Shown: positions 9,311 to 27,748 of the stretch, piece after piece | Layout: each line of letters begins with the position of its first letter | Position numbering within the stretch: position 1 is the stretch's first letter | Virus record (IMG/VR): IMGVR_UViG_3300027621_000028 | Span: 1 to 27,957 of that record | Reading direction: 5' to 3' (one strand) | Length of the DNA: 27,957 nt | DNA from: a virus | The notes under the pieces: generated by a model | What the model saw: the letters and a program-made list of their open reading frames with translations, nothing else | Told to the model about the DNA's origin: nothing | Database searches by the model: none | Program-made: the position numbers and the translations under genes

Positions 9311-10018
9311 TTAATTATTTCTTTCAGCTTCTGATTGTCCCCTTTGTTGCTGATACATATTTTCAATATCTCCAGCAATAAGTGAGGCTGTATCATCTAG
9401 CATTAGTTCAACAACATCATCTTTAAATTGACAAGGAATATTAGTTATACTAACAATTCCTGTATATGGATCAACACAACCTAGTATCTGTATATATATT
9501 GGCTTTTGATAATATGTCAATACAGGATTCACAATATTAAAATTTGGGTTTCTATAAATTCTAATCTTATTACCCAACATTGTACAAAAAGTTTCACCCC
9601 ATTCAAAATCAGGATTTTTTAAAGGATCTCTTAGTAATAGATTTACATTAGCTTCTTCAGCTAAATAAACTGTCATTGATCTTGGATCTAAACAACATTC
9701 ACTAGTAGCATCTGTACTTATTCTTTTAAATTCTAAATATGTATTTACTGGAAAATTATTTGTTTCAAAATAATTATCTGTAACTGTTCCTGTTAATGAC
9801 AATTCTCTTAATAAAGGTTGTAAATCATCAATTCTTCTTTTAGATAATTCATCTCCTTCTTTATACATGTTGCCACCATGCAGATTTCTTCTACACCATT
9901 CTAATTGCACCTTGTTAAATGCTTCAACAAATTGCCAGCATTCTATATTATCATAGTCCTGGCTATCAAGTTTATTTAATCTTTGCTTTAATTTAATTAA
10001 AAGTGTAGCGTTATTCAT
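9311..10018 (-). CDS. Head-tail connector / neck ring protein (putative)
   Basis: A 235-residue protein. Residues 1-75 are helical and begin MNNATLLIKLKQRLNKLDS, followed by a Trp/Phe helix (ECWQFVEAFNKVQLEWC). Residues 80-190 alternate like a beta domain. Residues 195-235 form a helix with DDVVELMLDDTASLIAGDIE and a Gln-rich end (MYQQQRGQSEAERNN). This helix-beta-helix plan, with the AGDIE helix and a charged Asn-rich tail, is what I recall from conserved proteins in crAss-like neck modules (ring or P22 gp4-like tail-stabilisation proteins). The position after portal, scaffold and capsid genes supports a role in closing the head. It lies 10 bases after the upstream gene and 3 before the next. 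Confidence 0.65.
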   Translation of the reverse strand: MNNATLLIKLKQRLNKLDSQDYDNIECWQFVEAFNKVQLEWCRRNLHGGNMYKEGDELSKRRIDDLQPLLRELSLTGTVTDNYFETNNFPVNTYLEFKRISTDATSECCLDPRSMTVYLAEEANVNLLLRDPLKNPDFEWGETFCTMLGNKIRIYRNPNFNIVNPVLTYYQKPIYIQILGCVDPYTGIVSITNIPCQFKDDVVELMLDDTASLIAGDIENMYQQQRGQSEAERNN

Positions 10019-10028
10019 TTTTTATCTT

Positions 10029-11045
10029 TTAAGAATTCCAGTATGGCTCTACTTTATTAAGTAGTGACATTAATGCTTCTTCATTTTCTGGATTTTTCAA
10101 AAATTGTAAACATTCAGAAGGTGATTTACCTAACTTAATGCCACTATCAATTGGTTCAATCCAACCTCCAGCTTTTGTTGTTATAAATCTATAAAATAAA
10201 GAATCTTTTATTAATGCTTTTATTTTTAACTCTTCCATTGATAATGTGGCTACATCTAGGAATTGTGTTGCTGCTCTTTTCTTAGAAGACTCAGCTCCAT
10301 TTCCATTGATATACTCATCCATATTTTCATAAAGAATATCATTGGGTGTACTCTTAATATATTGTGCACTATCTGCATCACAAATTTTAGCTACATACAT
10401 TAATTTTGCAGCATTAGTATCATACATTTTTTGTAATTCAACTAAAGCTTTATTTTTTAATTTACTAAGTTCAGTTCTTGTACTTAATGTTTCTTCTTGT
10501 GTATCAAGATAAAATTTAGGTGGATTACCCATTTCTCTTGCTTCTCTCAATGATTTTGCTACTATAGAAAAACCACCTGCATAAATTGCTTGTAGTTTAA
10601 TTAAGTCATAAGGATCTTTATCTGGATCTAAAAATACAGGATCATTTCCACATCTTAAACTAATCTTATCCCAAAATTTTGAATTATCAGGTTTCATTAT
10701 TGTTAACTTATTCCAGAATTCTTTATCTGTTGGATCAACTACATTAGCAGCTAATTCAGCTTCTAATTGAGAAACAAGTTTTCTGATTTCATCAACTTTA
10801 ATTTTTCTTGCTTTGGGATCTAACATCTTTACTTCTGGAGCAAATTCATTAAGACCTGTAATGTAACGTTTAACTCCATTCATTTCTAAACAAGCTAAGT
10901 TTTCTTCATGGAATACTCCATCATGTAAGGATAGACCATAATGTTCTAATCCCATGTTTTCTTTACCCCTATTAAAATAAGGACGGACAGCAATAGTTTG
11001 ATTTTTTGTTTGCTGATACTTTTCTACAATTGTGTAATCGTTCAT
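10029..11045 (-). CDS. Conserved-type virion or assembly protein downstream of capsid gene, unknown
   Basis: A 338-residue protein, acidic to neutral and mostly helical. Residues 1-60 hold a compact beta-like segment (YGLSLHDGVFHEENLAC). A long charged helix follows (about 75-95, KARKIKVDEIRKLVSQLEAEL), then a Trp-containing helical core (FWNKLTIMKPDNSKFWDK). The C-terminal region (about 265-338) reads like a small helical domain with LSMEELKIKALI, GWIEPIDSGIKLGKSPSEC and NPENEEALMSLLNKVE. I recall similar proteins next to capsid genes in large Bacteroidota phages, but cannot name the family. It follows a 118-base gap with a hairpin, a 16-base palindrome and a TTGACA box, so it may be separately regulated from the capsid gene. 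Confidence 0.75.
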   Translation of the reverse strand: MNDYTIVEKYQQTKNQTIAVRPYFNRGKENMGLEHYGLSLHDGVFHEENLACLEMNGVKRYITGLNEFAPEVKMLDPKARKIKVDEIRKLVSQLEAELAANVVDPTDKEFWNKLTIMKPDNSKFWDKISLRCGNDPVFLDPDKDPYDLIKLQAIYAGGFSIVAKSLREAREMGNPPKFYLDTQEETLSTRTELSKLKNKALVELQKMYDTNAAKLMYVAKICDADSAQYIKSTPNDILYENMDEYINGNGAESSKKRAATQFLDVATLSMEELKIKALIKDSLFYRFITTKAGGWIEPIDSGIKLGKSPSECLQFLKNPENEEALMSLLNKVEPYWNS

Positions 11046-11464: not shown

Positions 11465-13084
11465 TTAGAAAGAACCACCTGTAATAGGATTTCTCATAAC
11501 AATTTTTAATACCTTGGTAGGATCTTTAACCCAGATTGCAGGCATAGTTTGTGACATCATTACACGGTATCCGTTAAAGTTACCTGTTGATGCAAAACCT
11601 TGTGTGCGTCCCATGTAATCCATAGTTCCATTTTGGTAGAACCATTTCAATTGATTATCCCAAGATAATTTCAACAAATGGATGTTATCATTTCCTTCAT
11701 CAGTTACATCAAAAATAATGAAACTATAAGAGCTCAATGGACGGCCATCAATTAATGGATTCTCAATATCATTAGTATTCAAGTTATCAAACGCTGGGTT
11801 CAATACAAACTTAACATTAGCTAAGAAAGGAATAGTAAATGAAGTGTAAGCAAATCCATAATCTAAATCCATACCAGAACCTTTAACAGCTCCAATATCA
11901 CTAGCATTTTGAACTAAACCAGAACCATATACTTCATCAGCAATAGCTTTGTTGATCAATTGCATTCCACCAATACCTGTTTGTACAACAAGTGATCTTT
12001 GTGGATCTGGACCTTTGAATTCAACTTTACCTTGATAGAAATTATACAATTCAGATTTAAACATATCAAGTGTAAATGAAGATTTGTTATATACACGTTT
12101 GAATGAGTTATCCAATTGTGACCACAAACCTACAGACAATCTGATATCATCAGGACCATCTTGCTTGATACGTCCACCTTTACCCCACATCAAATATGTT
12201 TCAATATCTGAAGCAATTTTTGATAAGTGAGCGGCTTCCATTTTTGTAAGAAATGTTCTAGAAAGAGAACCATTTTCAAAAGCTTCTCTAGCTCCAGCTT
12301 TACCCATGTTAGCAATTAAACCTTCAATACTTGGTACTGCAGGATCACTAGCATTTTGATTGAAGTTTCTCCAAATTTCAGTTACAGGAACAGTACCATC
12401 TGCATTCAAACCACCTTTGATCATAAGATCAGCACGGCTAGAAATAGAATAATGTACGTGTGCTTCAGCTCCTCCTACAAAGTTGTAGAATTCACGGAAA
12501 CCAGAACCTGTTTCAATGTCAGAAAAACGCTCACCATATTCTCCACGGGCAGAACCCTTACGGAAGAATTTGGTACCTTTAGCCAAATACTTATTATCTA
12601 AGCTGGCTACGTTGTTGTTGTTTACTAATTGAACTGTGTAAATAAAACCGTCACCAGCAGGAATGATATCATCAGCTGTGATGTAAAGTTCTAATCCATT
12701 GTACTTGTCATAAGTGATAATATCACCATGTCCAAATGTTCTTTTAGAAATTTTAATTTTGAATGTTGTTCCATCTACACCTTTAGTAGCATTAGATGGT
12801 TCAATGTCTGCCACAATGTAGGGAAGATCTTGCGCAATAGGAGTTTGCCATTTGTACTCACCACGTGCATTGTCCACCATGATTGTATTCTTTCCACCAA
12901 ACGAAGCCATTTGATAAAGAGGCATTTCAACTTTTTGAGTCATTGCCCATAAATCAACTGGTCCCATATCCATTGGTTCTGCTGAACCAAGCATTTGGGT
13001 TAAGTGATAAGAATCAACATGAGAACTTGCCTTGTAGCTAGTGTCTCTTAGGAAAATCCCATTATTTAATACTGGAGTTGCCAT
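11465..13084 (-). CDS. Major capsid protein (HK97-fold, crAss-like; putative)
   Basis: A 539-residue protein directly after the scaffold-like gene and downstream of terminase and portal, the usual place of the capsid gene. The size and balanced composition (no Cys-rich or repeat regions) fit a major capsid protein. The N-terminal part (ATPVLNNGIFLRDTSYKASS) resembles crAss-like capsid starts as I recall them. Glycine-rich beta stretches, a long central helical region (about 255-300, IEGLIANMGKAGAREAFENG) and a C-terminal beta end (about 515-539, WVKDPTKVLKIVMRNPITGG) fit an HK97 fold. Codon choice looks more mixed and less AT-biased than in flanking genes, common in highly expressed phage genes. 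The leader has three TAATTGTTTT-type repeats, and a strong hairpin follows the stop. Alternative: another major virion protein, less likely. Confidence 0.82.
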   Translation of the reverse strand: MATPVLNNGIFLRDTSYKASSHVDSYHLTQMLGSAEPMDMGPVDLWAMTQKVEMPLYQMASFGGKNTIMVDNARGEYKWQTPIAQDLPYIVADIEPSNATKGVDGTTFKIKISKRTFGHGDIITYDKYNGLELYITADDIIPAGDGFIYTVQLVNNNNVASLDNKYLAKGTKFFRKGSARGEYGERFSDIETGSGFREFYNFVGGAEAHVHYSISSRADLMIKGGLNADGTVPVTEIWRNFNQNASDPAVPSIEGLIANMGKAGAREAFENGSLSRTFLTKMEAAHLSKIASDIETYLMWGKGGRIKQDGPDDIRLSVGLWSQLDNSFKRVYNKSSFTLDMFKSELYNFYQGKVEFKGPDPQRSLVVQTGIGGMQLINKAIADEVYGSGLVQNASDIGAVKGSGMDLDYGFAYTSFTIPFLANVKFVLNPAFDNLNTNDIENPLIDGRPLSSYSFIIFDVTDEGNDNIHLLKLSWDNQLKWFYQNGTMDYMGRTQGFASTGNFNGYRVMMSQTMPAIWVKDPTKVLKIVMRNPITGGSF

Positions 13085-14557: not shown

Positions 14558-17305
14558 TTATTTATCCTTTGGTTTTTTAACATCATACTTATTTTTATTC
14601 TGTATGGCTATATCTAACTGAGTGTTTGCTATCTGGGTTTGCGCTGCTATTCTTTCTCTTTCAACTTGAAGTTTTTGAGCTTCTGTAGATGATTTACTTA
14701 CCATTTCTTCACGCTTCATATTCATTTGCTCTCTATATTGAGTTGTTTGTTGAATATCTTTTAGTGTATCTTGGTAATCATTTACTTTGTTTTCATTTAT
14801 ATCAACACCAGCTCCGTATCCAGCAGCTCTAATTTCAGCAACCGTTATATCTTTTTGTCTATCTTTTTCTGACTCTGATTGTTCTAATTGAGCTTTCATT
14901 TGAGCTTCCTGCGCCTGTGCTTGTAACTGTTGTTCTTGCATTTGACGTTGTTGTTGCATCTCTTCTTTTCTTTGGTCAGCAATTCTTGCTTCAGCATCTT
15001 TAAGAATGTCTGTTACTTCAGCAATAGAATCAGCTTTAACAATATTTCCAAGTTCAAAAATACTTGCACCAGTTGTATTATTAGTTAAAGCCATTTGTTT
15101 TAATTGTTCAAGTATAGCCCTGTGATTTGTTTTGGTTGTGGCAAATACATTGAAATCTCTTAATAAAAGATCTGTACCATTAATAGTAAAGTTTACTTTA
15201 TCTGCCTCAGTAGACATATAACTTAATCTTATACTAGGTTTTGTACTACAATAGTATTGTGCTAAATCAGTTCTCATCTGATGAATTCTTGGCATTAGTT
15301 GATCAGAGTGTTGTGTAAAATAAATCTCTGTTTGTGCATATGACTGTTGCATAGCATTAATAACACCAGTGGCTGTTTGTGCTGATACAGCACCACCAAG
15401 TCTTTGTGGATTAATACCTATTGCATCAAAACATTGTTGTTTAAAATAATTAGCTAATTGTATTCTACTCATCAATCTACTAGTTTGCTCCATGTTTAGA
15501 GTCTGGTAGTGTTGGAAGTTTACAGCATTTTCTGTATTAGTAATACTTGTATCTAATGGAAGCATTTGAAAATCCTTCATTGCTACGTATGCTTTAGCAT
15601 AATTATTTTTACCCCAATCTTCACCCATTGAGTGACGTGGTAAAGCATTCTGATCAAACATAATTACAGTACCTAATTCATCTATAAGGATATCTGCAAT
15701 CTGATTGTTAACCATATTATATCCTACTTGATAGGCTTTCATTAAATCTACTAAAGAAGTAGATCTTGTATTTCTATCTGAAAATACCCTTCCTTCTACT
15801 GGAAGTTTGCAACCATATAATGAATTATTGCCTTTAAATTGAAAAGGTAATCTTCCTGGTTTAGTTCTGTTAATACCTAAATAAATAGGATTCAGTCCGT
15901 CAGCTGTTGTACCTACCCATGTAGCTGGAGTATTAGGTCCAACTTTAACACCTCCCCAAACTTCATTTATCCAAATCCAATCAATGTGTTCTCCTTGTAA
16001 TAAAGTATCCTTTGATTTGTTTTTAAATATTGATGTATCATAAATAGCTTTCTCAGTTATTCTAAATGTTTCATCTATAATTTCTTGAGTAATTTCACCA
16101 TCTAATTCAACCTTAGTTAAATGACCAACCTTTCTTTGAGTTTTCCAATAAATTGTACATACTCTCATTAAATTACTATCACCAAAATAAGCTAAGTCTT
16201 CACTTTGATTTAAAATCTGTGTTAATATATCCCCACCTTTAACAGGATCTGCCATGTAATTACTTGTATATTGTCTATATGCTAATCCCGGTGAATTTGT
16301 ATTCCATGCATGTGACTTAGTAGCATCATAATAAGAACCATCATTTTGGTACCCATTAACCCTATATTGAGCAGAAGTTAAAGGTTGAATTTGTTGTAAT
16401 GATTCTAATTGTTTATAATCCATTAAGTATCCATATCTATCCACTACATCAGATACAGTCATTAAATCAATCTTACCTACATAGGCAGAATCTGATATAT
16501 ATCTTTGATCTGGTGATTTTTGGTAGAATGTTAAAACAGGATTCCATAATTCAACATCATAATCATCTTCTAACATACGGAAATGCCAAAATTCCCTATC
16601 AGCAATAAGCATATCTCTAAAGCCTCTTTCTTCAAGTTCTTGCATTTTGAATCTTTCCTCATCAATATTAAGTTGATGTGAGGCCCATTCTTCAACAGAA
16701 CTTCTATATGACTTGCTAAAAAAATCTTGAATTTCAGGTAATGTCTTAATATTTTCAGGAGCAAGTTGTTGTTTAGCTTCATCAGATGCCGGGTCCATTC
16801 CCATTTGAATCATCTTTTGTACTAACTTTCTTTCAGCATCTGCAAGTAAAGCTTCTTCAACTTGCATTTTTTTCTGTTCAAGCATCTCATTATAAGACTT
16901 GTCATCAACAGCTCTGAATTGAACTTTGTTGTATCTTTTGGAAAACTCTCCACTCAATACATTAATTACATTAGGAACAATAGGATAAAATTTAAGTTCT
17001 AAAGCAGAATCATTCTCCTTAGTTAAAACGTCCATTAAATCTTTATAGTCATTATCAGGCTCAACTATGTAGTCTGATTTATCTATAATACCTTTAGCTA
17101 ATTTATAATTTTTTAGAAGCCTTCTGGCATTAACTCTTAAAAATTGTATTCCTTGTAATTCTAACCAATCTAAATTCCAAGAGGCCCAATCATCTGTTTT
17201 TTCAGCATATGGTAAAAACTGAATAGGTTGTGTAAGATTAGAAAAGGATGCACCTTGTTCTTTTCTTGCACCGGCTTTCAATTGCATTGCATTAAGTACT
17301 TTCAT
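14558..17305 (-). CDS. Portal protein (crAss-like; putative)
   Basis: A 915-residue protein starting 21 bases after the large-terminase stop. The N-terminal 300 residues are helical and aromatic, with WASWNLDWLELQGIQFLRVNARRL and YPIVPNVINVLSGEFSKR; the latter type of motif (pi-N-v-i-n-x-l-x-g-x-x-x-k-r) is common in large phage portals. Residues about 210-330 (ERGFRDMLIADREFWHFRML, ELWNPVLTFYQKSPD) and about 600-660 (GINPQRLGGAVSAQTATG) fit the portal wing and stem. The C-terminal 150 residues are a Gln/Glu/Lys coiled coil (EEMQQQRQMQEQQLQAQ), matching the extended crown of crAss-like portals as I recall it. Size, position and these motifs agree. The portal forms the dodecameric DNA channel to which the terminase docks. 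Confidence 0.85.
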   Translation of the reverse strand: MKVLNAMQLKAGARKEQGASFSNLTQPIQFLPYAEKTDDWASWNLDWLELQGIQFLRVNARRLLKNYKLAKGIIDKSDYIVEPDNDYKDLMDVLTKENDSALELKFYPIVPNVINVLSGEFSKRYNKVQFRAVDDKSYNEMLEQKKMQVEEALLADAERKLVQKMIQMGMDPASDEAKQQLAPENIKTLPEIQDFFSKSYRSSVEEWASHQLNIDEERFKMQELEERGFRDMLIADREFWHFRMLEDDYDVELWNPVLTFYQKSPDQRYISDSAYVGKIDLMTVSDVVDRYGYLMDYKQLESLQQIQPLTSAQYRVNGYQNDGSYYDATKSHAWNTNSPGLAYRQYTSNYMADPVKGGDILTQILNQSEDLAYFGDSNLMRVCTIYWKTQRKVGHLTKVELDGEITQEIIDETFRITEKAIYDTSIFKNKSKDTLLQGEHIDWIWINEVWGGVKVGPNTPATWVGTTADGLNPIYLGINRTKPGRLPFQFKGNNSLYGCKLPVEGRVFSDRNTRSTSLVDLMKAYQVGYNMVNNQIADILIDELGTVIMFDQNALPRHSMGEDWGKNNYAKAYVAMKDFQMLPLDTSITNTENAVNFQHYQTLNMEQTSRLMSRIQLANYFKQQCFDAIGINPQRLGGAVSAQTATGVINAMQQSYAQTEIYFTQHSDQLMPRIHQMRTDLAQYYCSTKPSIRLSYMSTEADKVNFTINGTDLLLRDFNVFATTKTNHRAILEQLKQMALTNNTTGASIFELGNIVKADSIAEVTDILKDAEARIADQRKEEMQQQRQMQEQQLQAQAQEAQMKAQLEQSESEKDRQKDITVAEIRAAGYGAGVDINENKVNDYQDTLKDIQQTTQYREQMNMKREEMVSKSSTEAQKLQVERERIAAQTQIANTQLDIAIQNKNKYDVKKPKDK

Positions 17306-17326: not shown

Positions 17327-19513
17327 TTATTTATAATTCTTGAAGCCTGATCTCTTAATTGTTTTGTCAGTATTGTTTCCATTACGCCCAATATTTTTAA
17401 AGGGACTATACATTAATTTATACAAATTTTTTGAATTATCCAAAGATTTCTCTTCAGATTCACGTCTTTTTGAAAAACCTCTATTAGATTGTTGTATTTT
17501 TACAAAAGCAACTAATGCTCCAAATGCAACTAATCTATCTACGTTAAGTCCGGGGTAGTATGCTAACATCTCTTTTATTAACATTCCATCTGGTATTCTT
17601 TCTACCCCTAATGTTTGTTTTGTAACAACACCATTAAGATCACTTTCCTCATCTATAACCTCTCTTAAAAATTCAATTGCATATGAAATTAAATGGCTTT
17701 TAAATAATACGCCTGTATTTTTCCAGCCATACTCTTGATATACAGTATTGTTTGAACCAAGATCTTTTAAAAATAATATCTGTTGTTTAGGAACTAAATA
17801 TCTTTGTTTTTTTCTAGCAATCATATGTTGAATAAATAGAGATATATTATTTTCCACTATTGTCCATGCATTGTACCATTCTATAATTAATTCTAATCTT
17901 TCATGTGTTTTATTTATATCATCAAATCTGCCACACCATGATGCTACAATTTTATCTTTCTCTAGAAATTGTTCTACATCTCCAGATATCATAGTTCTTG
18001 TAACCTCTGTTGCATTCTTATAAACAAAAATACTACATAAAGAATCTGATGTTGTAGTCTTACCTTCTGATACAGGGTCAATAGAAGCATAATAGGCTCC
18101 AAACTCTGGACTTTTAATAGGTCTTTCCCAAACCACAATACTTCCTGTTTTATCCACTTGTTTTTTATCTACAGGAAACCTGCTTATTGGTAGCTTACTT
18201 GTTCTTTTAGCAAAAACTCCTTTTTCATCTCTATCCAATTCTAATAATTCATATGGATATTCTTTCTCTTCTATTTTTTTTGCTTGTCTAGATAATATTC
18301 CTTGTGGAAATATTGATGCTTTTCTATAGGCAAATGCTTCTGCTATATTTAATGGTTTTTGAGATATTCTTAATTGAAACTGTTCACCATTTAATTCATT
18401 CTTCCATCTTTCTCTTTCAATACGTATAGCCTCTTCTGCTTCTTTTACTAAAGAGTTTCCATAGTCATCAATAAAAGGAGGCATTGACCATTGTTCAGGA
18501 ATAAATAAACCAGCCATACCTATTGTTCCATCTGCGTCAATTAAATCTGTTTCTACAGCATATATATCATTTGCTACTGGATTAGAAATCATTTCCTTTA
18601 AAGGATTACATTGTTCTAAATCTCCAACAGATCCTGCTGCTATAAACATACCTGTAGTCATCATACCAGATGACATTGCAGGACGTAAGTACTCATATGT
18701 CTCAGACATTTTTGGTGCTATCCCTGCTTCTTCATGAAAGAAGTATGTACACGGTCCACCTACTCCGGTAGTTGCATTTTTTTCAAAAGAACCCCCTTGT
18801 ATTTTTGACTTTAAACCCCTTGCTGTTTTTCTATTTCCAATTTTTACTTCAATCTGCTGTTGCCAAAGAAGAACTTTTTCTGGATTACTTGGTCTATACC
18901 AAGCAGTATGCTCATTTAAGAATGTCTTGTATTCATCTAAAAATTTCCAAGAACCTTTATCATTAATAAAATCTTTAAGAGATGCACCAATCTTGCAAAT
19001 ACTTCCTTCCTCAAACCAATACGTATTAATAATTTTACCCATGTGAAAATAAGAGGAAGCTATCTGGCGTTTTTTTAATATTGCTGAATGCTTGTCATGT
19101 AGTTCTGCAAGTAATTCATATAATGCCATGTGATATTGAGCATCTCTTATTTTTGCAAATCCGTATTTTTTTTCTTCTTTATCAAAGATGGGAAGAAAAT
19201 TTAACCACATGTAATAATCTCTAGTTAAATACCAGCTTTTATTTCCATCATTATAAATGACTCCATGTCTACATTTATTTTTTTGATCTTCCCAATATGT
19301 AGTAAAATCCTTTGACCTAAATGGATTATTACAATAAAACCCTTGTGCATTAAACTTTTTAGCTTCCTCATTAAATTTATATGAAAGCTTATTAAATTCA
19401 TACTGACCAGGAACACTAAATATACTTAAAACATATTCAATGAACTCTCCTTTAGTATTAAAGTCCGTGTTGGTCCAATTACCATCTTGATATGTTGGTA
19501 TTGATTTATACAT
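17327..19513 (-). CDS. terL: Terminase large subunit
   Basis: The DNA-packaging motor: an N-terminal ATPase and a C-terminal RNase H-like nuclease, 728 residues from the chosen start. The Walker A region is a degenerate KKRQIASSY (147-155). Walker B with the catalytic acid is CTYFFHEEAG (255-264), followed by a coupling motif AAGSVGDLEQ (292-301). Nuclease acids are likely Asp479 in ASIDPVSEG, Glu554 in IVENN and Asp659 in NVDRLVAFGAL. I chose ATG 19513 over the ATG 30 bases upstream because it overlaps the previous gene by only 8 bases and follows an A-rich leader. It is followed within 21 bases by the portal gene. The Walker A Gly-Lys-Thr/Ser core is not visible in canonical form, which is odd and noted separately. 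Confidence 0.9.
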   Translation of the reverse strand: MYKSIPTYQDGNWTNTDFNTKGEFIEYVLSIFSVPGQYEFNKLSYKFNEEAKKFNAQGFYCNNPFRSKDFTTYWEDQKNKCRHGVIYNDGNKSWYLTRDYYMWLNFLPIFDKEEKKYGFAKIRDAQYHMALYELLAELHDKHSAILKKRQIASSYFHMGKIINTYWFEEGSICKIGASLKDFINDKGSWKFLDEYKTFLNEHTAWYRPSNPEKVLLWQQQIEVKIGNRKTARGLKSKIQGGSFEKNATTGVGGPCTYFFHEEAGIAPKMSETYEYLRPAMSSGMMTTGMFIAAGSVGDLEQCNPLKEMISNPVANDIYAVETDLIDADGTIGMAGLFIPEQWSMPPFIDDYGNSLVKEAEEAIRIERERWKNELNGEQFQLRISQKPLNIAEAFAYRKASIFPQGILSRQAKKIEEKEYPYELLELDRDEKGVFAKRTSKLPISRFPVDKKQVDKTGSIVVWERPIKSPEFGAYYASIDPVSEGKTTTSDSLCSIFVYKNATEVTRTMISGDVEQFLEKDKIVASWCGRFDDINKTHERLELIIEWYNAWTIVENNISLFIQHMIARKKQRYLVPKQQILFLKDLGSNNTVYQEYGWKNTGVLFKSHLISYAIEFLREVIDEESDLNGVVTKQTLGVERIPDGMLIKEMLAYYPGLNVDRLVAFGALVAFVKIQQSNRGFSKRRESEEKSLDNSKNLYKLMYSPFKNIGRNGNNTDKTIKRSGFKNYK

Positions 19514-19910
19514 ATTTAAACTTAGCAAACACGTCTCCCTCATGTATTAACAAATGTTCTTCATCATTATGCATCATGGTTGTTGGTAGACAATGTTCAC
19601 TATATTGAATCACATCTCCTATCTCAATCTCTGTGATTCCTACACCTACAGCAATTACAGTTCCTTTATTTTCATTTTTTTGAGATGCTTCAGGTATAAT
19701 TATATTAGTATTTTTAAAATAAGCATTAGCTTTATTTTGTTTTATTAATAATTTTTTTCCTACTGGTATTACTTGTTGTATCATTTTTTTAGTTTTAATA
19801 TTTATTTTATCATCAATTGGTTCATCAATTGGTTCATCAATAAGCTTTAGCTCTACTGTAATTGGCTCATCCCAATAAAGAAAGGTCCACTTTTCTATCT
19901 TCTCTTTCAT
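19506..19910 (-). CDS. GroES-like co-chaperonin (Cpn10 domain)
   Basis: A 134-residue protein. Residues 44-134 align by eye with GroES/Cpn10: IPVGKKLLIKQ (strand 1), a mobile-loop region with TNIIIPEASQK, GTVIAVGVG, IEIGDVIQYS and the C-terminal HLLIHEGDVFAKF, equal to the GroES stretch around VLIMSESDILAIV. The N-terminal 43 residues are an extension with a repeated DEPIDEPID encoded by a 12-base tandem repeat. Co-chaperonins cap GroEL; phage versions (T4 gp31, RB49 CocO) replace host GroES to fold the phage capsid protein. The gene overlaps the upstream stop (TAATG) and the terminase start (8 bases), so it is locked into the head-assembly operon. The match is strong in pattern, but the mobile loop IIIP replaces the usual GGIVL. 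Confidence 0.8.
   Translation of the reverse strand: MKEKIEKWTFLYWDEPITVELKLIDEPIDEPIDDKINIKTKKMIQQVIPVGKKLLIKQNKANAYFKNTNIIIPEASQKNENKGTVIAVGVGITEIEIGDVIQYSEHCLPTTMMHNDEEHLLIHEGDVFAKFKYV
19811..19840. repeat. 12-base tandem repeat (about 2.5 copies)
   Basis: CATCAATTGGTT is repeated twice, with a partial third copy. It encodes the IDEPIDEPID segment in the N-terminal extension of the co-chaperonin gene. Confidence 0.8.
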
Positions 19911-22332: not shown

Positions 22333-22686
22333 TTACTTTGCTTTAAATTCTTTTTTCTTTAATATATCTGCTTCCATTTGCTCTAATGCTTTAGACATTT
22401 GTTCAATATTATTCTGTATAGTTTCACTTTGAGCATAACCATTATAAGTTCTTTTAGTTAAATTACCCAATGTACTTTTATTTCTTTTAATTGAATTTTC
22501 TAATTTAGTCTTTCTTAAATAAAATGTTCCTAATCCATCTATATTAATCCTTGGATATTCTAATTCAGATATTTTTTTTCTAAGTTTTCCATAATAAAAA
22601 GATATAAAATCATCCACTACTTGTGGATGCACTCCCACTTGTTCAGCTATATCTTGTTTAAATTCTTTATATTTTTTGGGATTCAC
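22333..22686 (-). CDS. IHF/HU-like DNA-bending protein
   Basis: A 117-residue protein. The N-terminal part (MNPKKYKEFKQDIAEQVG, then VVDDFISFYYGKLRKKI) forms the two helices of HU/IHF. RINIDGLGTFYLRKTKL (about 46-62) matches the conserved I-x-G-x-G-x-F beta core, leading into the DNA-contacting arm. The C-terminal 45 residues are helical and Lys/Glu-rich. HU/IHF-like genes near packaging genes are a hallmark of crAss-like phages as I recall. The protein would bend DNA in replication, transcription or head packaging. It starts 20 bases inside the end of the upstream winged-helix-like gene, so the two are translated together. Length is about 20 residues above a normal HU. Confidence 0.85.
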   Translation of the reverse strand: MNPKKYKEFKQDIAEQVGVHPQVVDDFISFYYGKLRKKISELEYPRINIDGLGTFYLRKTKLENSIKRNKSTLGNLTKRTYNGYAQSETIQNNIEQMSKALEQMEADILKKKEFKAK

Positions 22687-23038
22687 GTCCTAATATTTTA
22701 TAATCCAACAATACCAACCCGTTTGTCTGAATATTAATGTCTTTATTTAAAGAGATAGTTTTTTTATTTATACCATTTTTTACTATCAGTTTTTTCTTTT
22801 CTGCTTTAACCAAAGCATTTCTAGCTGATTGTGGACTTTTAAATATTTTTTCATCAGCTAATAATATACAAAATTTAGTTAGCTCCACTTTTGTATGTTT
22901 TGCTAATTCAGACAAACTTATAAGTTCTGAGGCACCAATAAGTATGTTATTAAAAAAACAATACGTGAGTATTTGATATTTAATAGTATCATCAATATCA
23001 ACCTGTAGTTTTAAATCTACTTTATTTACTATTGCCAT
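22667..23038 (-). CDS. Winged-helix-like DNA-binding protein (putative)
   Basis: A 123-residue protein. Residues 1-35 are a hydrophobic N-terminal segment (VDLKLQVDIDDTIKYQILTY). Residues 38-85 hold two or three short helices (SELISLSELAKHTKVELTKF) and then SPQSARNALVKAEKKKLIV. This reads like a winged helix-turn-helix, with strands LIVKNGINKKTISLN as the wing. The start overlaps the amidase stop (TAATG) and the end overlaps the IHF-like start by 20 bases. A transcription or DNA-organisation role together with the IHF-like protein is inferred; the family is not named here. Confidence 0.65.
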   Translation of the reverse strand: MAIVNKVDLKLQVDIDDTIKYQILTYCFFNNILIGASELISLSELAKHTKVELTKFCILLADEKIFKSPQSARNALVKAEKKKLIVKNGINKKTISLNKDINIQTNGLVLLDYKILGRESQKI

Positions 23039-23961
23039 TATTTTAAACTTATTATCATATCAACTAAGTCAGGATGTGGATAGCAATCTGATTTATCCTT
23101 TCTAACATTGGTATGTGTGAGTAATCCTTTTATTTTACCATAGCATGCATCCTCATGATAATCAAATGCTTTTTTTGGACCATGCTTTTGTATTAATTGT
23201 TTTAATCCCAATCTGATATCAATCTGGTCTCTTTCACCAACATATTTAATCCATTTCTCAATTTCTTTAATCTGATTGTCTGAATAAGAATGCCAATTGG
23301 TAAATCCTTTAAATGGTTCTTCCAATATTGTTACTTCATCTGTTTGAGTCACTGTTCCCACATAGGTTTTATATTCCTTAGTTAATGGGCCCATACAACA
23401 AACTTCTAATCCAACAGAATGTCTATTCATCCAGCCAGATTTAGTTGTTCCTAAATGCCAACCTTGATTTCCTGTTGGAAAAGCTTGAACCATATGACCA
23501 TCATATTTAGCATCACCGGTTGTATGATTTCTACCCCCTAAAACAAATTCTGTACCAACAGCCCCCCGGTCATCTTTATTCCACATATCAATAGTAGCAT
23601 ATGGATTATTATTTCCAGCTGTGTGATGTAAGAATATATATTCATTTTTAATAGGCCCTTGAATATATTCACCTTTAGATAAATAATGTTTATGAATTAA
23701 CTGATCATAATTGGTCTTAAAGTATTGACCATATATATCACTATCTTCATCAATAGCTTCTTGTAATGCTGGAGTTTTATTAAATAATAAAGTCCACATA
23801 TCTGAATCTACTATTCCTGTTGGTGGAATATTATTAGATAGTTGGAATCTAATTACAGCTTTTTCTGTTGCTGGTCCAAACTGTCCATCTTGTTTTAACA
23901 AGAGTTTGGATTGAAGAGTCTGTACATCTAGTCCAGTACTCCCCCTTTTTAACATTTGCAT
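23038..23961 (-). CDS. N-acetylmuramoyl-L-alanine amidase with peptidoglycan-binding domain
   Basis: A 307-residue lysin-type enzyme that cuts the amide bond between muramic acid and the peptide stem. Residues 3-60 form a PG_binding_1 domain (GSTGLDVQTLQSKL, FGPATEKAVIRFQ, GIVDSDMWTLLF). Residues about 105-300 form an Amidase_2 (T7-lysozyme-like) fold. FLHHTAGN carries the zinc ligand His112, with a further His in LTHTNVR (His283) and Cys293 in KSDCYPH, the last in the place of the T7 lysozyme cysteine ligand. The region GWHLG and VGLEVCC also fit the family. No signal peptide, so release would need a holin or virion association. It is followed by a coupled gene and preceded by a 1-base gap. 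Confidence 0.88.
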   Translation of the reverse strand: MQMLKRGSTGLDVQTLQSKLLLKQDGQFGPATEKAVIRFQLSNNIPPTGIVDSDMWTLLFNKTPALQEAIDEDSDIYGQYFKTNYDQLIHKHYLSKGEYIQGPIKNEYIFLHHTAGNNNPYATIDMWNKDDRGAVGTEFVLGGRNHTTGDAKYDGHMVQAFPTGNQGWHLGTTKSGWMNRHSVGLEVCCMGPLTKEYKTYVGTVTQTDEVTILEEPFKGFTNWHSYSDNQIKEIEKWIKYVGERDQIDIRLGLKQLIQKHGPKKAFDYHEDACYGKIKGLLTHTNVRKDKSDCYPHPDLVDMIISLK

Positions 23962-23962
23962 A

Positions 23963-24265
23963 TTATTCTATACTAGCTGCAGCATTTTCCATAGCTTCTT
24001 TAAAAGCTTGTGCCTCTGCAGAATTAACAGGAACTTGACCACCCTCTTTTTGAGCAGCATAAGCCTGGGCCATAAACATTTGTGCTTGAAGTCTTTCAGC
24101 TCTTGATTTTTCAATTGTAGCTAAAAGCATCTCATACTCTGCCTGAACTTCTAAATGTGGGATGTTGTCTTTGTAGAATGAAGAGATTTCTTCTCTACGT
24201 GCATTCAATTCTTCTTTTGTTAAGATGGGATCTTTCTCATCTAACGGGTTGTTGTTTTTTGCCAT
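23963..24265 (-). CDS. Small helical protein, unknown
   Basis: A 100-residue protein, strongly helical and Ala/Glu/Gln-rich. It runs from a Lys/Asp-rich N-terminus (MAKNNNPLDEKDPILTKEEL) through a long amphipathic helix (about residues 35-75, EYEMLLATIEKSRAERLQAQM) to an Ala/Glu tail. It may form a coiled coil. It is the first gene after a 72-base gap holding a possible promoter and lies 1 base ahead of the amidase. I recall similar short helical proteins beside lysis and packaging genes of crAss-like phages, but cannot assign a function. Confidence 0.7.
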   Translation of the reverse strand: MAKNNNPLDEKDPILTKEELNARREEISSFYKDNIPHLEVQAEYEMLLATIEKSRAERLQAQMFMAQAYAAQKEGGQVPVNSAEAQAFKEAMENAAASIE

Positions 24266-24337: not shown

Positions 24338-24586
24338 TTATTTTATTTCATTCTTTTTAAACAACCCAATTACGGTTTTCAGTTCTGACGCTTTATCAAA
24401 AACAACGCCTCCCTCTAAAACTTCTACTGTCCAATTTCCATTCATACTATCATCACTATCATTAGATATAAATCCAATATTCCCAATGCTTAAAGTATAA
24501 TAATACCATGGTGCATCACTTCCACTTGATTCTGGAGTTTCATCAACACGTTCAAATCCTAATTTAGTTAAATCAATTTCTCTCAT
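24338..24586 (-). CDS. Small acidic protein, unknown
   Basis: An 82-residue acidic protein with a pattern of aromatic and beta-prone segments (LGFERVDETPE, PWYYYTLSIGNIGFISND, NWTVEVLEGGVVF) and a C-terminal amphipathic helix (LKTVIGLFKKNEIK). The LGFxxVD...YYYTLxIGxxxFISN pattern is one I recall from short hypothetical proteins of Bacteroidota and their phages. The start lies 14 bases inside the end of the upstream 52-residue gene. It is the last gene of the small-protein chain. Confidence 0.7.
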   Translation of the reverse strand: MREIDLTKLGFERVDETPESSGSDAPWYYYTLSIGNIGFISNDSDDSMNGNWTVEVLEGGVVFDKASELKTVIGLFKKNEIK

Positions 24587-24731
24587 CTGGTTCTAATTTA
24601 AACATCACTAATTTTTTCATGTACTCAATTGCACTTTCTTGATCAGGAAATTTAGCCACTAATTCTTGATTAGCGTAAACCCTAAACTCCTCCACATCAT
24701 TAACCCAAGCCTGTGTAATATTAATTTTCAT
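24573..24731 (-). CDS. Very small protein (52 residues), unknown
   Basis: A 52-residue ORF with ATG at 24731 sharing one base with the stop of the upstream Lys-rich gene (TAATG), and ending 14 bases inside the next gene. It reads MKINITQAWV at the start, then a beta-like stretch (EEFRVYANQELVAKF) and a helix (DQESAIEYMKKLVMFKLEP). The coupled start and overlap, plus the lack of other coding potential here, support a real gene. Function unknown. Confidence 0.6.
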   Translation of the reverse strand: MKINITQAWVNDVEEFRVYANQELVAKFPDQESAIEYMKKLVMFKLEPDERN

Positions 24732-24976
24732 TACTTTTTCTTTTTCTTTTGAGTTCCTTTAGGCATTGGGGGATTTTCTTTGTGCCATTTCTTTGTTGCT
24801 GCTACACCTTGTTTAATAGTTTTAGCCCCAGCTTTTTGGGTAAGATTAATTTTATCCCACTTACCTTTATCTGTATTAGGATGGTCCACAATGATATCCC
24901 CCGGTTTACCTTTACCTACTTTTTTGGCTTTTTTGTAAACCACATGCTTTTCATTTCCTGCGGTTAACTTAGCCAT
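24731..24976 (-). CDS. Lys-rich basic small protein
   Basis: An 81-residue, highly basic protein, with Lys making up about a quarter of residues. It contains a VYKKAKKVGKGKPGDIIVDHP segment, a DKINLTQKAGAK stretch and a poly-Lys end (GTQKKKKK). Both start and stop overlap neighbours by one base (TAATG). The basic tail could bind DNA, RNA or negatively charged capsid interior. Families of this kind (short, Lys-rich, no known domain) are common beside one another in environmental phage genomes as I recall, but have no described function. Confidence 0.68.
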   Translation of the reverse strand: MAKLTAGNEKHVVYKKAKKVGKGKPGDIIVDHPNTDKGKWDKINLTQKAGAKTIKQGVAATKKWHKENPPMPKGTQKKKKK

Positions 24977-25617
24977 TACTTCTTCTTTGTTTTTGTAGCT
25001 CCACCCATCTTAGCTTTCATTGCACCGCCCATTCCATACTTCATAGATCCACCCATTCCGTATTTCATAGAACCGCCCATGCTATCTTTAAATGCAGAAC
25101 CTCCCATTTTTTTCTTAGGAGCAGCACCACCCATACCATATTTTATTGCACCACCTTTGCTTTTCATAGGCGGAGCAGTAGTAGTATCCTTTGTTATTCT
25201 AGGAGCAGAATAAGTATTCATACCCATTTTACCATCCATTTGTGTTTTAGATTTATTATCTGTTGGAAAATATTCATCAGGTTTTCTATTTAGGTTTTCT
25301 TTATTTTTTTTTTGTTGAGCTATCCTAATTTCTGTACCAACTTGTGCTTTGCCTGTACCACCACCATATTTTTTGTAACCCATTTTGTTTCTAACTTCTG
25401 TTGGAAGTTTAGCTAATCCTTTTTTACCAGCGGGTACATCTTTCATTGCTCCACCCATAGCCATCTTAGGTTTTTTACCTGCAGCTTTCATAGCTATTGC
25501 AGTAGCAGCTTGTTTCTTAGCTTTTACGGCACCACCTTTTTTCATCATTGAATCTCTCTTCATTGTTGAGTCAGACATCATTGTTCCGCCCATTTGCATT
25601 TTCTTTACAGTTTTCAT
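24976..25617 (-). CDS. Lys/Met/Gly-repeat protein with MGG motifs
   Basis: A 213-residue low-complexity basic protein. The last 60 residues contain six MGG motifs in units such as KYGMGGSMKYGMGGAMK and KKKMGG, and two more occur near residues 10 and 55. Between them lie Lys-rich linkers and a short ordered-looking segment (LAKLPTEVRNKMGYKKYGG, about 69-87). The MetGlyGly-Lys pattern is unusual; repeated Met and Lys could bind soft metals or nucleic acid. Similar short-repeat proteins occur in environmental phages, as I recall, without assigned role. The leader AAAACAAAAATT before ATG is a strong A-rich start. The stop overlaps the next start (TAATG). Confidence 0.75.
   Translation of the reverse strand: MKTVKKMQMGGTMMSDSTMKRDSMMKKGGAVKAKKQAATAIAMKAAGKKPKMAMGGAMKDVPAGKKGLAKLPTEVRNKMGYKKYGGGTGKAQVGTEIRIAQQKKNKENLNRKPDEYFPTDNKSKTQMDGKMGMNTYSAPRITKDTTTAPPMKSKGGAIKYGMGGAAPKKKMGGSAFKDSMGGSMKYGMGGSMKYGMGGAMKAKMGGATKTKKK
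25024..25085. repeat. Degenerate in-frame repeat encoding MGG-Lys units
   Basis: The plus strand has closely similar units, each around CCACCCATTCC followed by ATACTTCAT or GTATTTCAT and AGA. They code for successive GMGG(S/A)MK units in the Met-Gly-Gly protein. Confidence 0.6.
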
Positions 25618-25634
25618 AATTTTTGTTTTAAGTT

Positions 25635-25766
25635 TTATTTTTTTACACAGTTATTGTATGTCTTACCATACATTTTTTTTGTCCCTTTTTTTTCATAGCC
25701 TGGCCAGCATTTCTTTGCAGCACCTTTTTTAGGAGTGCCCATATTTATTTTATTCTTTAGTGCCAT
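25635..25766 (-). CDS. Tiny Lys/Cys protein (43 residues, or 35 from the second ATG)
   Basis: A 43-residue ORF starting 1 base after the previous stop. A second in-frame ATG at 25742, preceded by AAGAATAAAATAAAT, gives a 35-residue form with a better A-rich leader, and either could be used. The core KKCWPGYEKKGTKKMYGK, then a C-terminal cysteine in NNCVKK, is a motif I recall recurring in environmental phage contigs: two Cys separated by a Lys-rich loop. It may form a small metal-bound or disulfide-linked peptide. Too short for routine gene callers, but supported by composition and tight spacing. Confidence 0.65.
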   Translation of the reverse strand: MALKNKINMGTPKKGAAKKCWPGYEKKGTKKMYGKTYNNCVKK

Positions 25767-25767
25767 G

Positions 25768-26004
25768 TTATCTATATTTTGCAGCTTTCTTAGCTACGGA
25801 TTTTGGTTGTTTCACGAATTGTTTTCCTTTAGCATTACCTGCTGCCTTGGCTTTATTAGTAGCTGCTTTCTCAGAAGCACTTAATGCATCCCATGCTGCA
25901 GAAGGCAAATACCTTTTCTTACCTTTAGACGGTTTTCCGTCTGAGGTCTTCCATTTCTCATTACCCCACTTCTTAAGTGACTCTTGTGATTTAGCTAGTG
26001 CCAT
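25768..26004 (-). CDS. Lys/Ala-rich basic small protein
   Basis: A 78-residue highly basic protein. MALAKSQESLKKWGNEKW leads into KPSKGKKRYLPSAAWDALS and an Ala/Lys tail (KAAGNAKGKQFVKQPKSVAKKAAKYR). The pattern WxTSDGKPSxGxxRYLPxxAW...LSxxEKAATNKAK is a short phage family I recall without assigned function. The tail resembles histone H1-like Lys/Ala tracts and could bind DNA. The start overlaps the previous stop (TAATG). Confidence 0.72.
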   Translation of the reverse strand: MALAKSQESLKKWGNEKWKTSDGKPSKGKKRYLPSAAWDALSASEKAATNKAKAAGNAKGKQFVKQPKSVAKKAAKYR

Positions 26005-26174
26005 TACTTTTTCTTTATTTTATTCTGAACTGTTTGAGACAGTTCTTTCAAATGAAATAACTTTACACTTGTTTTACCATGTGTCTTTCCAGAAAATAAT
26101 GTACCATCTGGCATTTTATGATTACCACCATTATATAGTGTACCATCTTTCTTATAGTGATTTACGCCTTTCAT
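26004..26174 (-). CDS. Small basic protein (56 residues), unknown
   Basis: A 56-residue ORF with start ATGA overlapping the stop of the upstream gene and stop overlapping the next start (TAATG). It reads MKGVNHYKKDGTLYNGGNHK, then a repeat-like MPDGTLFSGKTHGKTSVKLF, and a helical Lys end (QNKIKKK). The doublet DGTLYNGGNH / DGTLFSGKTH looks like an internal duplication. It fits the family of short phage peptides in this cluster; function unknown. Translational coupling on both sides supports reality. Confidence 0.65.
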   Translation of the reverse strand: MKGVNHYKKDGTLYNGGNHKMPDGTLFSGKTHGKTSVKLFHLKELSQTVQNKIKKK

Positions 26175-26344
26175 TTGTATCCTCCTCCTGCTTTTTTATA
26201 TTGAACAGCAAGTAGTTGTGCTTTACGTGCAGACCACTCACCTGGATCACCACCCTTTGTACCCGCTTTAATCTTATTAAAGAGAGTCTTACGCATTCCT
26301 GGTTTGGTGTAATTACCGGCAGCGTTTACTTTTGATTTTGCCAT
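26171..26344 (-). CDS. Small basic protein, DUF5872-like (57 residues)
   Basis: A 57-residue protein. NYTKPGMRKTLFNKIKAG, then GGDPGEWSARKAQLLAVQY and a C-terminal KKAGGGYK match the short family I recall as DUF5872: KPxLRxxLxxxIxxGxKGG-xPGxWSARKAQLLxxxYKxxGGGY. No function is known for it. The start shares a base with the upstream stop (TAATG), and the stop forms ATGA with the next start. The C-terminal Gly-Gly-Gly codons produce AGGAGGAGGA just ahead of the next ATG, which happens to be a Shine-Dalgarno sequence. Confidence 0.75.
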   Translation of the reverse strand: MAKSKVNAAGNYTKPGMRKTLFNKIKAGTKGGDPGEWSARKAQLLAVQYKKAGGGYK

Positions 26345-26628
26345 TACCATTTAACTTTATCTGCCCAATAAGCAGCACTCATTTTACCTTTACTAATATT
26401 TGCTGCGTGTCTAGCCTTAAAAGATTTTTGTCTAGCCTTATCTTTTGGTGTGCTAGGATTTGCCCCGGCACCACTTACACCTTGCTGACCAAATCTAATA
26501 GTCTTTACACTATCACCTTCTTTTGCCACAACAACATGTGACTTAGTTGGATGTGAGGGAGTACGCTTTGGTGTATTATAACCAGCTACCCCTGCACTTG
26601 CTAACCTAGAGTCTTTTTTAATTGCCAT
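26344..26628 (-). CDS. Basic small protein, DUF6321-like (first gene of minus-strand chain)
   Basis: A 94-residue basic protein. The order is RLASAGVAGYNTPKRTPSHP, KSHVVVAKEGDSVKTIRFGQ, a linker, KARQKSFKARHAANISKG, and the ending MSAAYWADKVKW. This series closely follows a phage family I recall as DUF6321 (AGVxGYNxPKRTPxHPxKSHVVVAKEGxxxKxIRFGQQGV...SFKARHxxNIxKGxxSAAYWAxxxKW). Its biochemical role is unknown. As first gene of the minus-strand chain it follows the divergent promoter region. The stop overlaps the next start (TAATG). Confidence 0.78.
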   Translation of the reverse strand: MAIKKDSRLASAGVAGYNTPKRTPSHPTKSHVVVAKEGDSVKTIRFGQQGVSGAGANPSTPKDKARQKSFKARHAANISKGKMSAAYWADKVKW

Positions 26629-26859: not shown

Positions 26860-27189
26860 ATGAGCGTTTATTTCAGAAAATTAAGAATCAATGAGACAAC
26901 TGGCACAGCCACAATCATTGCAACAGACTCACCAATCGTGAGCAAACAAACTACACTGGCAGGCATGCCCGTGGGCACACGTACACAAGGTAGTGTAGTC
27001 TTTGGAGTGCTAAGCCTTATTGACCCTGCAACTAATCAGGTGATGAAGGCTAACCATCCAACCATCACTGCCTTGCAGAAAAAACTAAATGCTGGTGATG
27101 AAATGCCAGGATTCCAAATGAGTAGCAACTTTGTAGTTGACATTCAAACTGGTGAGCTAACAACCCTTAAATGGATTGAGGCTGTGTAA
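26860..27189 (+). CDS. 109-residue protein, first paralogue, unknown
   Basis: A plus-strand gene encoding 109 residues; it starts MSVYFRKLRINETTGTATII and ends LTTLKWIEAV. The centre holds FGVLSLIDP, KANHPTI and QKKLNAGDEMPGF, all conserved in the second copy at 27419. The fold looks mainly beta with a short helix (TALQKKLN). I do not recognise the family; a small nucleic-acid-binding or regulatory protein is possible. Codons are richer in G and C (GGC, GTG, ATC) than the second copy and most neighbours. It has its own A-rich leader, leader hairpin and perfect terminator, so it is a single-gene transcript and likely made in quantity. Orientation opposite to the late genes suggests early or separately timed expression. 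Confidence 0.8.
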   Translation: MSVYFRKLRINETTGTATIIATDSPIVSKQTTLAGMPVGTRTQGSVVFGVLSLIDPATNQVMKANHPTITALQKKLNAGDEMPGFQMSSNFVVDIQTGELTTLKWIEAV

Positions 27190-27379: not shown

Positions 27380-27418
27380 AATGCACTATTGCACAAAACA
27401 AATAAAATAAAATTAATT

Positions 27419-27748
27419 ATGTCAGTATTTTTTAGAAAATTGAGAATTAATGAAGTAACAGGAACTGCTACTATCATTGTAACATCCAAACCTATTCTTA
27501 GTAAAATAGGTACATTAGCCGGATTATCAGTAGGCACAAGAACCCAAAACAGTATTACATTTGGTGTTCTTAGCTTAATTGACCCGTTAACTAATTCAGT
27601 AATGAAAGCCAATCATCCTACAATTGCACAACTTCAAAAAAAGTTGAACGCAGGTGATGAGATGCCGGGCTTTAAATTATCTGATAATAAAGTAGTTGAC
27701 CTTGTAACAGGGGAAGAAACAACACTTTATTGGGTGGAAGCAGTGTAA
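27419..27748 (+). CDS. 109-residue protein, second paralogue, unknown
   Basis: A 109-residue product, same length as the first paralogue and identical at about 83 positions by hand alignment. The start MSVFFRKLRINEVTG was chosen because it aligns exactly with the first copy and follows the leader AAATAAAATAAAATTAATT; an in-frame ATG 30 bases upstream adds ten unrelated residues. Differences cluster at residues 21-31 and near the C-terminus (KLSDNKVVDLVTGEETTLYW). Codons are AT-rich, matching the rest of the genome, unlike the first copy. Its own leader and terminator make it an independent unit. The function is unknown, as for the first copy. Confidence 0.8.
   Translation: MSVFFRKLRINEVTGTATIIVTSKPILSKIGTLAGLSVGTRTQNSITFGVLSLIDPLTNSVMKANHPTIAQLQKKLNAGDEMPGFKLSDNKVVDLVTGEETTLYWVEAV

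Follow-up and report, generated by a model that had tools for sequence, protein, structure and literature searches.

The whole stretch of DNA analysed here, which we call the window, comprises positions 1 to 27,957 (27,957 nucleotides) of the IMG/VR virus record IMGVR_UViG_3300027621_000028. Between positions 24338 and 26628 it carries nine short open reading frames (ORFs) arranged head to tail on the minus strand, which we refer to collectively as the cassette and individually as p9 to p1. A first-pass annotation had described nine such genes in a row and suggested that they form one set. All nine are indeed present on the minus strand with the coordinates and junctions it gave, and the set recurs in other phages. 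The members of the cassette are as follows.

26344..26628 (-), p9: 94 amino acids (aa), net charge +14; assigned to the Tlr6F/DUF5754 family, phrog_7595
26171..26350 (-), p8: 59 aa (57 from the second ATG), net charge +11; assigned as the N-terminal half of a split DUF5872, phrog_17747
26004..26174 (-), p7: 56 aa, net charge +9; small basic module whose homologs in podovirus-like contigs are flanked by portal and scaffold genes
25768..26004 (-), p6: 78 aa, net charge +16; assigned as the C-terminal half of a split DUF5872, phrog_14910; obligate companion of p8
25635..25766 (-), p5: 43 aa (35 from a later ATG), net charge +12; Cys-containing CWPGYEKKGT..NNCVKK module
24976..25617 (-), p4: 213 aa, net charge +37; MGG-repeat protein with 8 MGG
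24731..24976 (-), p3: 81 aa, net charge +17; basic module
24573..24731 (-), p2: 52 aa, net charge -3; acidic, present in few relatives
24338..24586 (-), p1: 82 aa, net charge -7; acidic and fast-evolving, travels with g23963 in the phage clade of the window

From p9 to p1, the junctions measure -7 (-1 from the second ATG of p8), -4, -1, +1, +17, -1, -1 and -14 nucleotides (nt). Overlaps occur at six of the eight junctions, as opposed to 4 of the other 23 on that strand (Fisher P = 0.006). Given that the genome is compact throughout, with 12 of the 23 junction gaps elsewhere on the strand being no longer than 20 nt, the tight packing of the cassette is by itself only mildly unusual. The earlier description of the products as mostly Lys-rich holds for p3 to p9, which are basic and contain 15-30% Lys, but not for the acidic p1 and p2. 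Likewise, the proposed joint translation in lock-step was not borne out, because the arrangement varies: relatives differ in which of the genes they carry and in what order, and p1 and p2 are lineage-specific companions that fall outside the basic set.

The cassette ORFs are judged to be real genes because p6, p8 and p9 exhibit low nonsynonymous divergence relative to synonymous divergence when compared with relatives (dN approximately 0.005-0.05, dS approximately 0.2-0.9), and because cassette homologs are present in hundreds of unrelated viral contigs. In more distant pairs, the dN/dS values for p6, p8 and p9 are well below 0.15, which is comparable to or below that of the terminase large subunit (TerL). 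The cassette genes are therefore real, maintained by purifying selection and mobile between phages.

Two members of the cassette are almost inseparable. The p6 gene is present in 78 of 80 loci anchored on p8, and p8 is found in all 78 loci anchored on p6. Among annotated phages, 16 of the 17 records with p8 also carry p6, even where the two lie approximately 2 kb apart, as in HMO-2011. Fusions of p8 and p6 occur in phages (L161, L163 and L333), and the fused form resides on chromosomes of Methylobacterium, Sphingomonas, Roseomonas, Aureimonas and Pseudomonas, where the bacterial DUF5872 homolog was found by using a profile of the fusion. Scores against the DUF5872 model (PF19197, cut-off 27.5 bits) rise from 18.8 bits for the window p8 and p6 joined, to 24.9 bits for the natural L161 fusion, and to 28.2 bits for the Methylobacterium protein (L512). 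The two window proteins align in the order p8 then p6 along this single model, wherein residues 21-86 of the join cross the p8/p6 junction, and the L161 fusion covers positions 4-99 of 116. We thus assign p8 and p6, on the basis of these alignments, as two halves of DUF5872 that form one unit, which is a single protein in some phages and bacteria. In ten Pseudomonas loci (L533, L559 and similar), the chromosomal DUF5872 gene is followed by a conserved gene of approximately 130 aa.

The p9 protein is likewise placed in a known family, although the window copy scores only 15.9 bits against DUF5754 (PF19058, cut-off 27.4 bits). Matches to this model are found in 22 of 41 members of the p9 family at E <= 0.1, and the best of these (6.4e-13, 49 bits) lies above the cut-off. 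This top scorer (L250) is a homolog of p9 with a BLASTP value of 2e-15. On this evidence, p9 is a member of DUF5754, a family also called Tlr6F that occurs in polinton-like viruses, virophages and giant viruses. Knowledge of Tlr6F goes back to at least 2013 (PMC4642659, PMC3671162). It is a small single-domain protein with no known function that is conserved in these viruses and in some phages (PMC12220804, PMC4642659), the latter having been noted as 'some poorly characterized phages' (PMC4642659, PMC12220804).

The first-pass annotation had likened two of the cassette products to DUF5872 and DUF6321. The former comparison was sound, albeit only for p8 and p6 jointly, and the latter family accounts for none of the nine proteins. 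With the DUF6321 model (PF19846, cut-off 28.5 bits), p9 reaches 17.5 bits; it gives no significant result with hhalign, and it groups with DUF5754/Tlr6F. The label 'minor head protein and DNA pilot' (phrog_220) was also set aside for p9, given that the match in other phages is the p9 gene itself, and the label therefore carries no functional weight.

DUF6321 is nevertheless relevant to this system. The p9 position behaves as one slot with two ALTERNATIVES, namely p9 or a DUF6321-type basic protein, and cassettes that lack p9 often carry the latter. An 84-aa DUF6321-like protein (MATPRKGKAKVK...) was observed in place of the missing p9 in L042, L064, L074 and related loci, and the two types were therefore counted. 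Among 164 distinct loci with p8/p6, p9 is present in 88, the DUF6321-type protein in 60, both in none and neither in 16 (Fisher 3e-30, a value that is not corrected for relatedness). The median distance to p8 is similar for the two (406 bp for p9 and 422 bp for the DUF6321 type). The same exclusivity is evident in 54 whole records, of which 27 carry p9, 25 carry the DUF6321 type, none carries both and two carry neither. Isolates with p9 include CRP-9, HMO-2011, ICBM2, S-CBS2, C72C1 and S-EIV1, and those with the DUF6321 type include MEP402 and HTVC034P.

When 36 closely related crAss-like loci are placed on a TerL tree, the p9/DUF6321 label changes five times, and at least four of these changes are forced by well-supported branches; in phages with terminases more than 80% identical, the swap has thus taken place no fewer than four times. 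A short RRxSFxAR motif is common to both protein types, and a profile comparison between them with hhalign was not significant (probability 7.6). We therefore claim that p9 and the DUF6321-type proteins are probably functionally equivalent and do not claim homology as proven, since this motif is all that they have in common.

The remaining modules are also drawn from a shared pool. The p3, p5, p7 and MGG proteins recur as modules in other phages. Fusions link p3 to p5 (L483) and p3 to a bona fide DUF6321 that scores 71-85 bits (L448 and L479). The MGG protein p4 has the motif AATAIAMKxAGKxPK in common with the c7 family, an MGG family that neighbours p3 in sister phages and adjoins it in 34 loci anchored on p3. 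The phrog_4359 match considered for p5 yielded nothing in nine phage records, an NCBIfam search returned nothing useful, and a scan upstream of p9 for Bacteroidetes-type promoters performed no better than chance.

In close relatives, the variable slot sits upstream of a conserved block with the order g23963, endolysin, g22667, HU/IHF-like gene and g22011. One relative (L010) carries almost the same gene set in the same order as the window, and other close relatives have subsets in different orders or have the cassette genes replaced, in some cases by genes whose products are not basic (L016). Between the window and L010, the dS values for p8 through p2 are 0.04-0.18, in comparison to 0.5-0.8 for most backbone genes, and therefore this stretch has recently been exchanged en bloc. 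The first-pass annotation had held that independent scattering of the genes in related phages would speak against a joint set. Gene order is not conserved, but co-occurrence of the modules is strong. We are highly confident in the view of the cassette as a mosaic of swappable modules from a shared pool, and in the family assignments described above.

Of 398 module loci, 236 include a head gene; it is without exception on the same strand, and in 229 cases it lies within eight genes. The remaining loci are often short contigs or belong to unscored groups. In unrelated contigs, where the modules are embedded in head operons, the flanking clusters are major head proteins (phrog_1357 and phrog_267), a portal (phrog_1216), a scaffold-like protein (phrog_19777) and TerL. 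In siphovirus-like contigs, the order is major head protein, p9-p8-p6 and then a phrog_7578 protein. In podovirus-like contigs it is TerL, portal, p9-p7, scaffold-like protein and major head protein, and in sister crAss-like phages it is major head protein, c5, the modules and c11. Moreover, small genes no more than two positions from the modules encode basic proteins in 56% of cases, versus 9% for those further away.

The window itself is assigned as a fragment of an aquatic (marine) crAss-like (Crassvirales-like) phage, because its TerL, portal and major head proteins are related to those of crAss-like phages. These three proteins match phrog_6681, phrog_6547 and phrog_11589, respectively, in a PHROG search. 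The last of these, the major head protein, shares 23-29% identity with those of Leptolyngbya phage Lbo-JY46, Cellulophaga phages phi4:1 and phi17:2, and gut phage csAssE-Sib. A total of 80 relatives were sampled by TerL, and one record (L409) is essentially identical to the window across the cassette region. The principal landmarks outside the cassette are listed below.

23963..24265 (-), g23963: conserved gene that forms the downstream border of the variable cassette slot, as determined by comparison with relatives
23038..23961 (-), endolysin downstream of the cassette: matches phrog_1224/1493/1794
22333..22686 (-), HU/IHF-like protein, gene adjacent to that of the endolysin: weak match to PF00216 (15.9 bits)
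17327..19543 (-), terminase large subunit: phrog_6681
14558..17305 (-), portal protein: phrog_6547
11465..13084 (-), major head protein, crAss-like: phrog_11589
10029-11045 (-), c5: adjoins c11 in the window
9311-10018 (-), c11: adjoins c5 in the window

Every identified structural gene lies on the minus strand in a span from approximately 304 to 26628, and the cassette therefore constitutes the upstream end of this block. In 43 of 43 sister crAss-like loci (including L412, L425 and L451), the capsid-side genes c5 and c11 are parted by 0.8-5.1 kb that includes p3, with or without p8/p6, whereas the two genes are adjacent in all 29 loci of the clade to which the window belongs. This contrast indicates that the cassette has changed place, whichever way the transfer ran, between the capsid locus and the slot by the endolysin. 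The proximity of endolysins invited consideration of a role in lysis, which we rejected given that in many phages the modules are far from lysis genes and yet beside head genes.

Several other features were noted. The endolysin homolog in L077 (2895-3814) is broken over two frames at approximately position 3272. Plus-strand genes starting at 26860 diverge from the cassette and include a tandem paralogous pair of approximately 110 aa each (26860-27189 and 27389-27748, both +), the first of which has no NCBIfam match above cut-off. The ORF at 794-3481 (-) encodes a long, repetitive, fibre-like protein whose C-terminus resembles, by eye only, an S74-type intramolecular chaperone.

AlphaFold2 predicts p9 to be a compact domain with a helix, a beta hairpin (31-46) and helices at 61-78 and 85-93 (mean pLDDT 87.7). 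For a natural p8-p6 fusion from a relative, the p6 half is confidently predicted to be mostly helical (pLDDT about 80-93). As modelled, p9 and p6 are therefore not disordered protamine-like tails, and p4 appears by composition to be the protamine-like member of the cassette. Sequence and fold searches of the PDB gave no usable match, leaving the p9 and p6 models without a solved counterpart.

The explanation that best accounts for these observations overall, to which we give even chances, is that the cassette encodes late, head-associated nucleic-acid-binding proteins that are packaged with or near the genome; packaging and binding are steps that we infer. Linkage to late genes and to the head is supported by gene context in several unrelated phage groups, and nucleic-acid binding is suggested by charge and conserved basic residues. 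According to this proposal, a mosaic late-gene cassette of small basic proteins would be made together with the phage head, and the basic surfaces of these proteins would bind nucleic acid. They would then end up in the head, accompanying the packaged genome or bound to it, and there may help to condense or organize it and perhaps shield it during entry. The core piece would be Tlr6F or DUF6321, with p8-p6 as its regular partner and the MGG and other Lys-rich proteins as variable accessories. The components of this proposal merit separate grades. Association of the cassette proteins with the head or virion, as the first-pass annotation had guessed, fits the neighbourhoods of the modules and is reasonably probable, and nucleic-acid condensation as their task is plausible but somewhat less than an even prospect.

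Five observations weigh against packaged nucleic-acid-binding proteins. In several isolates, the modules are near an endolysin and/or terminase gene rather than a capsid gene. DUF5872 exists as a lone chromosomal gene in surface-dwelling bacteria with no phage context, and therefore its biochemistry cannot require a virion. Given the compact folds predicted for p9 and p6, simple charge condensation is not an obvious activity for either of them. No PDB fold or sequence match indicates DNA binding. Finally, virion proteomics for any homolog was not found in the accessible literature.

The main rival, which we regard as somewhat unlikely, is a role in capsid assembly or decoration. Here p9 or DUF6321, together with p8-p6, would engage the major head protein, the portal or the scaffold while the procapsid is being built, and charge would serve to contact acidic scaffold or capsid surfaces rather than DNA. 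This idea agrees with the precise position of the modules in unrelated phages, which is between the portal and scaffold genes or alongside that of the major head protein, with the compact folds predicted for p9 and p6 and with the presence of one copy per genome with an exclusive alternative, as would be expected for a defined structural slot. However, p9 is 60-77% identical across phages whose major head proteins and portals are unrelated (different PHROG head families). Tight binding to a single capsid partner would not readily explain this, and the pattern favours, without proving, a partner common to all, such as DNA, over a specific capsid surface. Furthermore, the small proteins that neighbour the modules are basic as a class.

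Alternatively, the proteins may be made late or injected and target host nucleic acid or ribosomes inside the infected cell, through nucleoid coating, RNA binding, host shut-off or phage DNA protection, with the proximity to head genes reflecting late transcription only. The high basic charge and the HU/IHF-like gene nearby in the window are compatible with such action, and the chromosomal DUF5872 genes of Methylobacterium, Sphingomonas, Roseomonas and Pseudomonas imply that a cellular role of the fold exists. Set against this are the consistent late-module placement in unrelated phages and the fact that host take-over genes of phages usually lie in early regions, and we consider action in the host cell unlikely. 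It is also conceivable that there is no joint task at all and that a recombination-prone intergenic slot simply gathers unrelated small accessory genes, as the reshuffling of order and content among close relatives and the entry of non-basic genes might suggest. This explanation is already disfavoured by the p8-p6 pairing, the p9/DUF6321 exclusivity, the dN/dS values and the recurrence of the same set in unrelated phages, and we deem it highly improbable.

A broader version of the packaged-protein hypothesis is that Tlr6F/DUF5754 and DUF6321 constitute an interchangeable core head component of many aquatic tailed phages, with Tlr6F serving also in polinton-like and giant viruses, that organizes the packaged genome together with the DUF5872 pair and variable Lys-rich proteins. 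Such a packing system common to bacterial and eukaryotic viruses strikes us as rather doubtful. Regardless, the finding that Tlr6F resides in head operons of phages, where it has constant partners and a mutually exclusive replacement, yields concrete hypotheses for this widespread but unexplained family, and the cultured carriers CRP-9, HMO-2011, ICBM2, HTVC034P and MEP402 offer phage models for Tlr6F/DUF6321 function. Several functionally unannotated DUF families and PHROGs would also join a common late, head-linked set.

The component families of the cassette are already known, either as DUFs or as Tlr6F. In the open-licence literature, we found no description of the cassette as a whole, of DUF5872 split into a pair, of Tlr6F and DUF6321 excluding each other or of placement in head operons. 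The likeness to Tlr6F lies in the p9 homolog that passes PF19058 and in the small single-domain architecture, and what is new in the case of p9 is the linkage to phage head operons, the steady partners and the exclusive alternative of the DUF6321 type. Compared with DUF5872 (PF19197) as a single protein, the window has the family split in two genes with p7 inserted between p8 and p6. DUF6321 (PF19846) is represented by a small basic protein with the same slot and partners in other phages and is absent from the window. Small basic proteins inside the head are familiar from the internal head proteins of T4 and the basic core proteins of adenovirus and baculovirus, which we offer as a working analogy only, with no claim of sequence relation. 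Among crassviruses, the capsid and tail cargo proteins of PhicrAss001 are gp45, gp46 and RNA polymerase subunits (PMC10172136). This cargo is large (60-277 kDa), and the accessible portion of that report describes no small basic set, but the two systems would be alike in that crassviruses do package non-shell proteins with their DNA (PMC10172136).

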